A DNA stretch of 38,216 nucleotides, from IMG/VR virus record IMGVR_UViG_3300043496_000104, positions 1-38,216 of that record, one strand, 5' to 3'. A model generated the notes under the pieces. That model was given only the letters and a program-made list of their open reading frames with translations, did not search any database and had not been told where the DNA came from. Positions within the stretch are counted from its first letter, which is position 1, and every line of letters starts with the position of its first letter. The position numbers and the translations under genes are program-made. Origin of the DNA: a virus. Below are positions 1-38,216 of this stretch, piece by piece.

Positions 1-102
1 ATCGTCCGTCTCGCGCGGGCGCTGGGCGTCGAGACCGAGCTGCTCTTTCCGGTCCCGGATCAGACGCGATTGGAGAAGACCGAACAAAGCGCGACCCGAT
101 AA
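1..102 (+). CDS. 3' end of Cro-like XRE regulator (partial copy)
   Basis: This is the carboxy-terminal 33 codons of the XRE-family protein that is complete at 37,955-38,191, present a second time only because the contig ends overlap. It reads in frame +1 from base 1 to the TAA at 100-102 and carries the end of the HTH domain and the tail ending EQSATR. It should not be counted as a separate gene. Confidence 0.93.
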   Translation: MVRLARALGVETELLFPVPDQTRLEKTEQSATR

Positions 103-111
103 CCGGGTCGC
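91..111 (+). terminator. Hairpin over the cro-like stop codon
   Basis: GCGACCCG (91-98) pairs perfectly with CGGGTCGC (104-111) around a 5-base loop that contains the TAA stop. There is no T-tract after it, so it is not a classical intrinsic terminator. It could be an RNA 3'-end stabiliser, a pause site or an antitermination element between the cro-like gene and the early operon. The structure is seen; the role is inferred. Confidence 0.4.
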
Positions 112-182
112 AAGGCGCGCGGCGCCGTCGCTGAAACGACGAACGCCGCGCTAACACCGACGCGCCACAGGAGGGCGCGCCC

Positions 183-6699: not shown

Positions 6700-7020
6700 A
6701 TGACACAGAAACCTGCGCGGACTCGGAAGGATCCCGCCGCCGTCTCGCTTGGTCGGCGCGGTGGGAAAGTGAAATCAGACGCCAAGACGCGCGCGGCGCG
6801 CCGCAATGGCAAAAAGGGGGGCCGACCGCGCAAGCCGGTCGCGTCTCTCGTGCGCTACACCCCGACGGCGGCTGACCGCTGGGCGGCGCAGGCGCGGGCA
6901 CCGAAGCGGCCGCTGCCGGATTCAAAGATCGATTTTTCGGAGATCCCGGAGGCGAGCGACGAGTGGCTCGCGCAAGCGGTGCGGGACCGCGCCGCCCGTC
7001 TGCGGGGCGGTGGGCGATGA
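6700..7020 (+). CDS. Basic GRP-motif protein, putative antitoxin or DNA-binding factor
   Basis: This 106-residue protein has a strongly basic first half (SLGRRGGKVKSDAKTRAARR, then GKKGGRPRKPV, containing the GRP core of AT-hook-like motifs) and a tail KIDFSEIPEASDEWLAQAVR like the acidic start seen in BrnA/CopG-type antitoxins. No partner toxin is next to it; the integrase ATG overlaps its stop. It could be a DNA-bending accessory factor for attP, an orphan antitoxin or an int regulator. Its likely leaderless promoter would let it and int be expressed independently of the early operon. Confidence 0.65.
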   Translation: MTQKPARTRKDPAAVSLGRRGGKVKSDAKTRAARRNGKKGGRPRKPVASLVRYTPTAADRWAAQARAPKRPLPDSKIDFSEIPEASDEWLAQAVRDRAARLRGGGR

Positions 7021-8411
7021 AAACCACCCTTCGAGTCCGGCGCGAAGGCGGCCGCTGGATCTACGCGCCGATGATCCACGGCGCGCGCAAGCCGCGTGTC
7101 GATGTCACGGAGTACGCGCTCGCGCGGGGCGGGCCGCGCACGCTGCGGACGGAAGAGACGGCGGTGCAATGGGCCGCGAAAATTCAGGCCGACTGGCTGA
7201 ACGGCCGCGACCCCCGGAAGACGCCGACCGAACAAGCGACGACGACGCGCGCCCACACGGTCGCCGACCTGGTCGCCGCCTATCGCCGCGCGAACGCCGC
7301 GCACCCGGTGCTCGACGCCGATGACGACGGCAAGGCCCCGGCGCCGCGCCTGAAGCAGCCGGCCGTCGTCTGGAGCGAACTCCGGCACATCAGCGAGTAC
7401 TTCGGCGACGCGGCCGTGACCGACCTCGAGGACGAGACGACGGTCGGCAAGTTCGAGGACGAGCTCGCGGAGGGCTGGGCGCCGGGCGACAAGGTCGTGG
7501 AGCGCGGCGCGTCGGGCGTGCGGCACCTCCTGGTGCGGCTGCGCGCGGTCGTCCGGTGGGGGATGGGGCAGCGCACGCCGTGGCTGCGCCGCTCCCCGTT
7601 CCACCGGCACGGCGTCGCCATCACCGACCTGGACGACACCCGCAGCCGCCGGTTGAAGCCGCGCCTCTTCAGCGGGCTGAGTGAAGAGGCGGCGCTCCTG
7701 GTGGCGTGCCAGGTCATGAAGGGGGAGATCCACCAGGGCGCCGGGATCGCGCTCGAGCGGCGGATCCTCGGGGCGCTCGAATTGGCGGGCCGGGGCAGCG
7801 ACCTCAACCGGGTGCGCGTCGAGCATGTCGTGCTCAAACCTCTCAAGGGCCAGCCCTATGTCACGTTCCTCGGCCGGTCGCGCGGGGGCGGCAAGGCGAA
7901 GCAGGATCGCCGGGTGCCATTCGATCCGGCCGGGCCGCTCGCCCAGGTCCTGGCGGGGCAGCTGTGCGTCCTCGCGGCGGGCGACTACGTCTTCGGGGAC
8001 GACAACGGCCGGGTGGTGAGTCACTATCGGGCGTGGCGCACGGCGCGCCTGCTCGCCTACGGCATGATCACCGCCGACGGCCGGGGGCGCACCGCCGAGA
8101 GCGATCACAAGCTCCTGCAAGGGATCGATCTGCAGTTCCGGGATCTGCGGCGCGAGTGCGCGTCACGCTGGTGGCAGGCGGGCCTCGACCTCCGGCGGAT
8201 TCAGCTGCTGCTCGGGCATTCCACCCTGCTCATGACGCAGCGCTACCTGCAGCTGCCCGAGGGCGAGGATGACGGGGCCGCGGTCGCGGCGGCGATGGGT
8301 TGGGACGCTGACGCGGCGCCGGCAAGTACCCAGAAACCCGTACGAAGTACCCAGCAAGTACACAAAACGGCCAACCGAGGCAAAATGCTAAGCGGCGGAT
8401 CGAAGAGGTAA
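7017..8411 (+). CDS. int: Tyrosine integrase
   Basis: This 464-residue site-specific recombinase would insert and, with Xis, excise the prophage at a tRNA-Phe gene. The catalytic domain shows R259 (GRGSDLNRVRVEH), the strand region with GGGKAKQDRRVPF supplying the likely Lys, FRDLRRECAS (R375 to R379), LLLGHSTLLMTQRYLQL with H401 and nucleophile Y410. The box II histidine (usually HxLR) is R375 here. The start at 7,017 overlaps the previous stop (ATGA). The last codons overlap the left arm sites of attP. Tyrosine recombinase identity is secure. Confidence 0.95.
   Translation: MKTTLRVRREGGRWIYAPMIHGARKPRVDVTEYALARGGPRTLRTEETAVQWAAKIQADWLNGRDPRKTPTEQATTTRAHTVADLVAAYRRANAAHPVLDADDDGKAPAPRLKQPAVVWSELRHISEYFGDAAVTDLEDETTVGKFEDELAEGWAPGDKVVERGASGVRHLLVRLRAVVRWGMGQRTPWLRRSPFHRHGVAITDLDDTRSRRLKPRLFSGLSEEAALLVACQVMKGEIHQGAGIALERRILGALELAGRGSDLNRVRVEHVVLKPLKGQPYVTFLGRSRGGGKAKQDRRVPFDPAGPLAQVLAGQLCVLAAGDYVFGDDNGRVVSHYRAWRTARLLAYGMITADGRGRTAESDHKLLQGIDLQFRDLRRECASRWWQAGLDLRRIQLLLGHSTLLMTQRYLQLPEGEDDGAAVAAAMGWDADAAPASTQKPVRSTQQVHKTANRGKMLSGGSKR
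8324..8365 (+). repeat. Left attP arm-type repeats (3 copies)
   Basis: AAGTACCCAG at 8,324 and 8,345 and AAGTACACAA at 8,356 lie inside the 3' end of int. The spacings of 21 and 11 bp are two and one helical turns, and a degenerate slot sits between the first two. They match the right-hand set in sequence and orientation, as expected for integrase arm-binding sites. Confidence 0.75.
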
Positions 8412-14134: not shown

Positions 14135-15169
14135 TTACTTCGCCGCATCCAGCGCGTTCCCAGCGCCAATGTATGGAAGCTGCGGCTGTTTGCCAAACAG
14201 CGTCTTAAACTGCTGCTCAAAGACGGCCTTCGACGCCGAGAGTTGCATGATGGTCAGAACGGTGGTGATTTGGCGATCCAGGTGGGGGATGCCGGTACCA
14301 ATTGTCATCGTTTGCCACAACTTCGCGCGGCGATTGCCGTTCTCGTTCTTTGGCAGGAGGCGCTTCATTTCCGCGGGGACTCCAGGCGGCAGCGGGTCGT
14401 AGATGTACTTGTTAATAAATTTACCAAGATACTGCGGGTGCTTCACGGACCCCGACTTGTACTCCCATCCGTGCAGGCGGTACGTTTCTCGGAAAAACTC
14501 GTGCGGGAATCTGCGCGTCCATGGCATCAAGCTAGGAGCGATGTAGAGCGCGATGATCTTCAGCGCGTCCTCTCGCGCCTTATCGGCCTGATAGCCGGTC
14601 GCGAGATCTACCATCGCACGGATGCCGTCCTTGGCGAGTGCGCGGGTCAGGGTGTCGCAGGCCGTCACGATGTGCGCGTACTTCGTCGGGACGCGCTTGT
14701 TCTTCTCGTAGTACCAGTCGCGGAGTTTCAGGTAGACCTCTGCGACCATTGGCAGCAGGAGCGCGTCGTAGCCCACTGTGCGCTGCCCGTTCCGAAGCCT
14801 GAACAGGATCGGAGTCGTCGACAACACCAACTCCTCAGACACAAAGGGCTTAAGCTCCTCTGCCTGCAAGAAAAAGGGGAGATCGTCGACAGTCGAGAAG
14901 CCGCCTGTTCCGGCCTTCGGCGTGCGCGAGCGCCCGATAGCCTGAAGGAACGTGCCCTGACTCAGGAGTCGCTTACCGTTGCCAAGGACGGCTGCGATCA
15001 AGGTGCGATCCCCCAGCTGCATAGCGCCGTCGTGCGTGGCCTGTGGAAGATCGGCGTTCCAGCGAGCCAAGGCCGCCGTTCGCCCGGCCGCTGCGAGTTC
15101 CTCCTTGGTGAGCACCGTCGCGCGAGTCTTGCCGCCCTTCGACTGCCTGCTGATACTATTGTCGGACAT
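14135..15169 (-). CDS. P63C-domain protein, leftward moron
   Basis: This 344-residue protein matches the P63C domain (PF10546): RTLIAAVLGNGKRLLSQGTF, LPFFLQAEELKPFVSEEL, GYDALLLPMVAEVYLKLRDW, IRAMVDLATGYQ, RFPHEFFRETYRLHGW, IYDPLPPGVPAEMKRLLPKN. The family's biochemical role is unknown; it is widespread in phages and plasmids. It begins with a basic disordered stretch. It runs against the late genes between TerL/wHTH and portal, has visibly lower GC than them, its own ribosome site (AGGAGCAGGC) and its own TTGACA promoter: a textbook moron. Domain call is confident, role unknown. Confidence 0.88.
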   Translation of the reverse strand: MSDNSISRQSKGGKTRATVLTKEELAAAGRTAALARWNADLPQATHDGAMQLGDRTLIAAVLGNGKRLLSQGTFLQAIGRSRTPKAGTGGFSTVDDLPFFLQAEELKPFVSEELVLSTTPILFRLRNGQRTVGYDALLLPMVAEVYLKLRDWYYEKNKRVPTKYAHIVTACDTLTRALAKDGIRAMVDLATGYQADKAREDALKIIALYIAPSLMPWTRRFPHEFFRETYRLHGWEYKSGSVKHPQYLGKFINKYIYDPLPPGVPAEMKRLLPKNENGNRRAKLWQTMTIGTGIPHLDRQITTVLTIMQLSASKAVFEQQFKTLFGKQPQLPYIGAGNALDAAK

Positions 15170-37333: not shown

Positions 37334-37849
37334 CTAGCCGGTTTTATCATCACGATCTTCTAAATCTTTGAGCTGTGTTACCAGTTCAGTGACGAGCTGG
37401 CGGCGTTCTTCGGTGAGCCGCGCGATGCTGGTCGCAAGCGCTGAGAGCTCGTCGGTCGTTGGTTCACTGGGGCGCTGCGGCTCACGATCACGCAGGAGTC
37501 GGCGCGCATGATCGCGCACGGCTGTCGAGGCCTCGTGATAAGCGCGGGCGATTTCGAGATCCTCACGATTGAGACCTTTGAGTAGTGGGTCCGTCGGGTT
37601 GATGTGCGGTTTCTGCTCCAGGGCCGCGAGGGTCGTGCCCAGAACGCGCGCCACGGCATCAATGTTCTCGTCTTTATTCTTGCGGATGCCCCATTCGATC
37701 GTTTGGACCGTGCCTGTAGAGATCTTGGCCCGCTTGGCGAGTTCGATCTGATCCAACCCCTGCTCGATGCGTAGGGATCGGAGGCGGCCCCCAATTCGCT
37801 TCCGTTGCGCGTCGTCCAGCACGCGCTCATTGTTTCGAAGGTTAGGCAT
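37334..37849 (-). CDS. CI-like repressor, XRE HTH without peptidase domain
   Basis: In this 171-residue protein GGRLRSLRIEQGLDQIELAK, RAKISTGTVQTIEWGIRKNK is an XRE HTH. The second part (LNREDLEIARAYHEASTAVR, DHARRLLRD) occurs in other phage repressors, and the end is a coiled coil (LSALATSIARLTEERRQLVT). There is no LexA/S24 serine-lysine peptidase region, so induction by RecA-driven self-cleavage is not expected. It is divergent from the Cro-like gene across the switch region. Confidence 0.85.
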   Translation of the reverse strand: MPNLRNNERVLDDAQRKRIGGRLRSLRIEQGLDQIELAKRAKISTGTVQTIEWGIRKNKDENIDAVARVLGTTLAALEQKPHINPTDPLLKGLNREDLEIARAYHEASTAVRDHARRLLRDREPQRPSEPTTDELSALATSIARLTEERRQLVTELVTQLKDLEDRDDKTG

Positions 37850-37886
37850 CGCGGTTGATGCATAGTGAACTCGTTGCGCACACGTC

Positions 37887-37955
37887 GATTATTACGATAA
37901 TCCTGTGCTTGACAATAGTCAATTGATTACATAAGCTAACTGTGGTCGTTAACGA
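37887..37955. promoter_or_regulatory. Lysogeny switch: face-to-face promoters and operators
   Basis: TTGACAATAGTCAA (37,909-37,922) is a perfect 5+4+5 palindrome. Its left arm is the -35 of a rightward promoter (TTGACA, 17 bp, TAAGCT at 37,932-37,937) toward cro; its right arm read on the minus strand is the -35 of a leftward promoter (TTGACT, 17 bp, TATCGT at 37,899-37,894) toward cI. GATTAT TACG ATAATC (37,887-37,902) covers the leftward -10, and TCGTTAACGA (37,946-37,955) covers the cro start. Both polymerases cannot bind at once. Confidence 0.78.
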
Positions 37956-38191
37956 TGAACCTGAAGATCGCGCGCCAAATTGCACACCTTACGCAACGGC
38001 AGCTCGCCAGGCGGGCGGGTGTGGATGAAGCGACCATTTCGCTCCTTGAGCGCGGCGAACGCGACTATGCGCAGGCCGGCTATGCCGCGATCGTCCGTCT
38101 CGCGCGGGCGCTGGGCGTCGAGACCGAGCTGCTCTTTCCGGTCCCGGATCAGACGCGATTGGAGAAGACCGAACAAAGCGCGACCCGATAA
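37955..38191 (+). CDS. Cro-like XRE regulator
   Basis: In this 78-residue protein MNLKIARQIAHLTQRQLARR, AGVDEATISLLERGERDYAQ, AGYAAIVRLARALGV is an XRE HTH followed by a short tail. It would repress the CI-like gene and open the early operon that continues at base 183 after circular closure. No clear Shine-Dalgarno precedes the ATG; the palindrome TCGTTAACGA touches the start codon. Confidence 0.88.
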   Translation: MNLKIARQIAHLTQRQLARRAGVDEATISLLERGERDYAQAGYAAIVRLARALGVETELLFPVPDQTRLEKTEQSATR

Positions 38192-38216
38192 CCGGGTCGC
38201 AAGGCGCGCGGCGCCG
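38090..38216. repeat. Terminal direct repeat, right copy
   Basis: Identical to bases 1-127; see the left copy. Joining the two ends makes the Cro-like gene continuous with the early operon and gives a 38,089-bp circle. Confidence 0.95.

Follow-up and report, generated by a model that had tools for sequence, protein, structure and literature searches.

How do two divergent phage regulators divide the use of one short control region when a single palindrome supplies the -35 boxes of both their predicted promoters, and should such a palindrome be read as an operator? The question is raised by a viral contig 38,216 bases long (IMG/VR record IMGVR_UViG_3300043496_000104, positions 1 to 38,216), which was analyzed at its full length and is referred to here as the window. 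Near its right end, two XRE genes on opposite strands point away from each other, one leftward and one rightward, across a 105-bp gap. Both proteins carry an HTH_3 domain, and the pair heads one leftward and one rightward gene group in a phage that has an integrase. The intergenic region is 43% G+C, compared with 69% G+C for the genome.

The phage and its divergent regulator genes

PHROG and Pfam assignments placed an exonuclease, a tyrosine integrase (6963-8411, plus strand; phrog_1/PF00589), a terminase (phrog_979, 2e-7), a P22-type portal (phrog_156, 3.7e-111) and a major head protein (phrog_283, 6.6e-72) in the window. The portal, head protein, terminase and integrase expected of a P22-like temperate podovirus were therefore all found. 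An exact 127-bp direct repeat stands at the two ends of the window (1-127 = 38090-38216), which points to a genome of 38,089 bases that is probably either circular or terminally redundant. The right end of the window would then continue into its left end, and the repeat duplicates the last part of the cro-like gene. Portal relatives in bacterial genomes were mostly from alphaproteobacteria, many of them Phenylobacterium and Caulobacteraceae, which suggests this group for the host; the phage probably infects an alphaproteobacterium. Two further features of the gene order were recorded. The integrase gene sits inside the rightward gene set, not beside the repressor, and a 344-aa P63C-domain protein (phrog_2384, PF10546) is encoded at 14135-15169 on the minus strand, opposite to and between the terminase and portal genes. 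The latter gene has a lower G+C content at codon positions and looks like an inserted extra gene.

The leftward gene (37334-37849, minus strand) occupies the position of a cI-like repressor and encodes a 171-aa XRE regulator with an N-terminal HTH_3 domain (residues 23-76, Pfam 4.5e-8) and matches to PHROG transcriptional regulator/repressor families. No S24/LexA-type peptidase domain, the kind associated with self-cleavage and oligomerization, was detected in this protein using Pfam. A single-sequence AlphaFold2 model reached a pLDDT of only 52 overall, too poor for a fold search, with a long C-terminal helix (residues 132-170, pLDDT about 74-83) and a poorly modeled remainder. The rightward gene, in the cro position (37955-38191, plus strand), encodes a 78-aa XRE regulator (Pfam HTH_3, 3.9e-10). 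Its HTH is 45% identical to that of the D3 CI protein over 58 residues and resembles F10 CI too, whereas comparison of the 171-aa protein with D3 CI gave no match. No Shine-Dalgarno sequence is apparent before the rightward gene, whose predicted leader is only about 11 nt. A 10-bp G+C-rich stem-loop lies across the cro-like stop codon (38179-38201) and was scored as a minus-strand terminator.

Searches for the 171-aa repressor found no relatives in IMG/VR or among the INPHARED phages, and only one weak local HTH match in portal-related viral records. Among 35 proteobacterial genomes with portal relatives, one weak match to the repressor was obtained and set aside, as it lies among chromosomal genes and not in a prophage. 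A DNA search with the switch region gave no match in phages, and the closest portal relatives (56-62%) are fragments that do not include the switch. Since the rightward HTH resembles D3 CI, and the leftward protein has neither an S24 domain nor a phage relative that we could find, the names cI and cro, which were assigned by position only, are provisional.

Predicted back-to-back promoters around a 14-bp palindrome

Promoters were predicted with a sigma-70 weight matrix built from E. coli frequencies, and its scores should be read with the probable alphaproteobacterial origin of the phage in mind. Applied to lambda, the scan recovered PR (TTGACT-17-GATAAT) and PRM (TAGATA-17-TAGATT) exactly, with starts 83 bp apart as known. 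In the window, the best plus-strand promoter (12.1 bits) combines a -35 box TTGACA at 37909-37914 with a -10 box TAAGCT at 37932-37937, giving a predicted rightward start at about 37944. The best minus-strand promoter (11.6 bits; 9/12 by consensus scan) combines TTGACT at 37917-37922 with TATCGT at 37894-37899, and its predicted start at about 37887 is 57 bp from the rightward one. Both -35 boxes are contained in a 14-bp palindrome, P2 (TTGACaataGTCAA, 37909-37922), for which there is no second exact copy in the window. The left arm plus an A spells TTGACA, and the right arm read on the other strand spells TTGACT. The two hexamers abut inside P2, 2 bp apart and with no base common to both, and the whole arrangement is symmetrical, [-10]-N9-TTGACnnnnGTCAA-N9-[-10], with nine bases from each -10 box to the palindrome. 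The original prediction that one palindrome supplies both opposing -35 boxes, each 17 bp from a -10 box, is therefore borne out by the coordinates and by the ranking of the two promoters on their strands. Its description of the -10 boxes as plausible holds for the 17-bp spacing of both, but less well for the cro -10 box, which is weak and matches the consensus at only 3/6 positions.

Such a pairing is rare in this genome and in shuffled sequence. Strong promoters on both strands were found in only 3 of 1,524 overlapping 125-bp scanning windows across this genome, all three covering P2, and the next best place for paired promoters scored 8.6 and 8.9 bits. Among 20,000 dinucleotide shuffles of this intergenic sequence, 0.22% produced divergent promoters with at most 14 bp in common (P = 0.0022). 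The pattern TTGACN4GTCAA, which was chosen post hoc, arose in 0.005% of the same number of shuffles of this region. On either strand of the 38-kb window, TTGACA occurs three times and TTGACN4GTCAA once. Given the top scores on both strands and this rarity elsewhere in the genome and in shuffles, the promoter pair at P2 is probably real.

It could be argued that only the rightward TTGACA uses P2 as described, with the leftward gene transcribed from elsewhere and the leftward TTGACT incidental. One possible source is a second minus-strand candidate, TTGTCA-16-AATAAT (37915-37888), which matches the consensus at 10/12 positions, and PY54 offers a reported precedent in a promoter that lies inside the cro-like gene (PMC4488713). 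We consider this alternative unlikely: TTGACT-17-TATCGT is the better promoter by weight matrix (11.6 vs 9.1), and the TTGTCA candidate would itself still fall on P2.

Probable polymerase competition and candidate operators

If both predicted promoters are used, their spacing has consequences for polymerase binding. The footprint of RNA polymerase usually extends from about -55 to +20, and on this assumption the two footprints overlap over about 54 of 75 bp (about 70%), each covering the -35 box of the other promoter. The footprints had been said to overlap completely; with predicted starts 57 bp apart, they do not. The accompanying claim that promoter choice is mutually exclusive even before any repressor acts can fairly be drawn from the presence, in one palindrome, of the -35 boxes of the best promoters on both strands, and mutually exclusive polymerase binding is likely. 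We thus judge it reasonably probable that the early-promoter region works by competition. Each of the two divergent XRE regulators would have its own sigma-70-type promoter, the two promoters lying back to back with adjoining -35 boxes within P2, and a polymerase on one promoter would cover the opposite -35 box, such that the promoters would compete for occupancy. The symmetry of P2 would arise mainly because two consensus -35 boxes point away from each other, and the two XRE proteins would then bias promoter choice from candidate sites somewhere in the 105-bp region. Read this way, the switch is well suited to asking how much of a lysogeny decision can be carried by promoter occlusion alone.

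Two further palindromes had been described over the cI -10 box and the cro start codon, and both were located, each unrelated in sequence to the other and to P2. P1 (GATTATtacgATAATC, 37887-37902) lies over the leftward -10 box and start. P3 (TCGTTAACGA, 37946-37955) lies downstream of the predicted rightward start and extends to the first base, A, of the cro-like start codon at 37955. Dyads with 6-bp arms, as in P1, were present in 18% of shuffles (P 0.18), and perfect 10-bp palindromes, as in P3, in 16% (P 0.16); dyads with 5-bp arms and a 4-bp gap, as in P2, were present in 12%. Since P1 and P3 are at chance level in the shuffles, they are unproven as sites and are treated here as candidate operators only. 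No copy of P1 with fewer than 3 mismatches exists elsewhere in the window, and P3 has no convincing further copy in the genome; for both, imperfect copies are scarce or no more frequent than by chance. Copies of P2 that differ at two positions are somewhat more numerous than expected (14 against 7), and are scattered and G+C-rich. No direct repeats were found in 37840-37970, and no example of the P1+P2 double-palindrome pattern in IMG/VR. The suggestion of one site per regulator is not supported, as neither P1 nor P3 exceeds chance or has convincing further copies in the genome.

P2 might nevertheless be a true operator. Along the lines first proposed, an XRE dimer (of one regulator, or of each in turn) would bind TTGACnnnnGTCAA and shut both promoters, leaving P1 and P3 to act separately in the remaining functions. 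In its size P2 resembles an operator dyad, of the kind to which XRE dimers generally bind, and the centers of P1 and P2 are 21 bp apart, or two helical turns. The symmetry is already accounted for by the two -35 boxes, since two consensus boxes placed back to back spell TTGACnnnnGTCAA whatever binds there. The three palindromes are also unrelated in sequence, with P1 and P3 no better than chance and no convincing further genome copies of any, and in D3 the annotated operators are placed next to the predicted shared -35 hexamer and do not cover it, which speaks against the shared -35 being the operator. We therefore regard an operator at P2 as unlikely. The stronger proposal, that the palindrome with the two -35 boxes also acts as the operator and that a single dimer site plus promoter exclusion replaces the multi-operator logic of lambda, seems more doubtful still; if true, it would make P2 a minimal one-palindrome lysogeny switch.

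The occurrence of the motif elsewhere bears on the same point. With a -10 box on both sides, TTGACnnnnGTCAA was found in 22 IMG/VR stretches at the functional N9 spacing, as against 4 at a mis-spaced N6, although the 22 include near-duplicate loci and several lie inside ORFs. The strict form of the motif was found in 4 IMG/VR stretches, three of them between divergent non-regulator genes with a packaging-ATPase-like gene on one side. Since the strict motif lies there between non-regulator phage genes, TTGACN4GTCAA evidently occurs as a promoter pair where there is no lysogeny operator. The palindromy of P2 is therefore not supported as a sign of an operator, being explicable by the -35 boxes and by a motif that recurs between such genes, and TTGACnnnnGTCAA palindromes should not be taken as operators by default. 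One match to the symmetric motif that at first looked lysogeny-like was rejected, as its ORFs, among them a small XRE gene, suggest a plasmid-type locus.

Sites of the loose TTGA-N6-TCAA class are known from alphaproteobacteria. P2 could on this basis be a site for a host FNR/FixK/NnrR-type regulator that would tie the switch to host physiology, and TTGACAATAGTCAA does fit the loose class. That fit follows automatically from the -35 boxes, however; the site would have its center near -28.5 relative to both promoters, where binding would repress, and the promoter-linked form TTGACN4GTCAA-N9-TANNNT did not occur in any of 18 proteobacterial genomes, nearly all of them alphaproteobacterial. We consider a host-regulator site very improbable, and competition between the two promoters remains the preferred reading.

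Comparison with known switches

The tight back-to-back layout is not new in kind, being predicted in D3-type phages and published for plasmid pLS20. The Pseudomonas phages D3, F10, JBD44, VB_EV13 and PP9W2 were scanned because their CI resembles the 78-aa protein of the window. As in the window, they have a divergent XRE pair, in their case with an intergenic region of 87 bp, in which one self-complementary TTGCAA, identical in the five genomes, is the predicted -35 box of the top promoter on both strands. The spacers are 18 bp and the starts 67 bp apart, all of these being predictions and not mapped starts. The same six bases would thus serve both promoters in these phages, whereas the 14-bp palindrome of the window holds two adjoining hexamers. 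Three 14-bp operators, spaced 24 bp apart, are annotated in D3, whereas no repeated operator is visible in the window. What the window shares with the D3 type is the layout only, one palindrome forming the best -35 box on both strands; the -35 sequence differs, homologous operators and a homologous repressor were not found, and only the HTH of the 78-aa protein is alike. The comparison suggests that abutting or shared -35 boxes arose more than once in cI/cro regions. In all five Pseudomonas phages, the predicted cI start coincides with the first base of the ATG or adjoins it, as for a leaderless transcript. By the same scan, phi297 did not show the layout, and an XRE pair in a Mesorhizobium prophage was discarded for having no shared -35 box.

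The window resembles lambda OR in its divergent repressor and cro genes and in the length of the intergenic region (100 bp in lambda, 105 bp in the window). In lambda, the starts are 83 bp apart and the -35 boxes separate, compared with 57 bp and abutting boxes here, and the three related operators OR1-3 stand against three unrelated palindromes. The window thus has the divergent XRE genes of a lambda-type switch, but neither three related operators nor an S24/LexA-type repressor domain was found in it. The layout had been called more compact than that of lambda OR. This is correct for the distance between starts, but the compactness is not unusual, since predictions for the D3-type promoters make their -35 region no less compact, and the promoters of pLS20 are packed more tightly still.

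The immB region of phage PY54 has divergent cI and cro genes, a single Cro operator and leaderless cI and cro mRNAs that were mapped (PMC4488713). The same study reports that a cI promoter readily found in silico proved only weakly active (PMC4488713), which weighs against the promoters predicted here. PY54 is like the window in its few operators, very short leaders and divergent cI/cro genes, but its cI promoters do not appear to have a -35 palindrome in common with cro, unlike the predicted promoters of the window (PMC4488713).

The motif itself is shared with phages whose neighboring genes are of a different kind. In phages that are phi29-like by their packaging-ATPase-like genes, and in other IMG/VR phages, the exact [-10]-N9-TTGACnnnnGTCAA-N9-[-10] arrangement lies between divergent genes as it does in the window. 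The neighbors at these loci are packaging-ATPase-like and small membrane-type proteins, whereas in the window they are putative lysogeny regulators. In four phages with phi29-like packaging-ATPase genes, the symmetric divergent promoter sharing TTGACnnnnGTCAA adjoins that gene; in a separate phage family, represented by six loci, the symmetric promoter motif is upstream of a large tail-fibre-like gene.

A published counterpart is the conjugation switch of pLS20 (Pr/Pc, RcoLS20), in which the divergent promoters of a regulator and of the operon that it controls overlap (PMC4207663). There, each promoter has its -10 box at the -35 box of the other, and DNA looping is involved (PMC4207663). The pLS20 promoters thus coincide fully, whereas in the window only the -35 region is shared.
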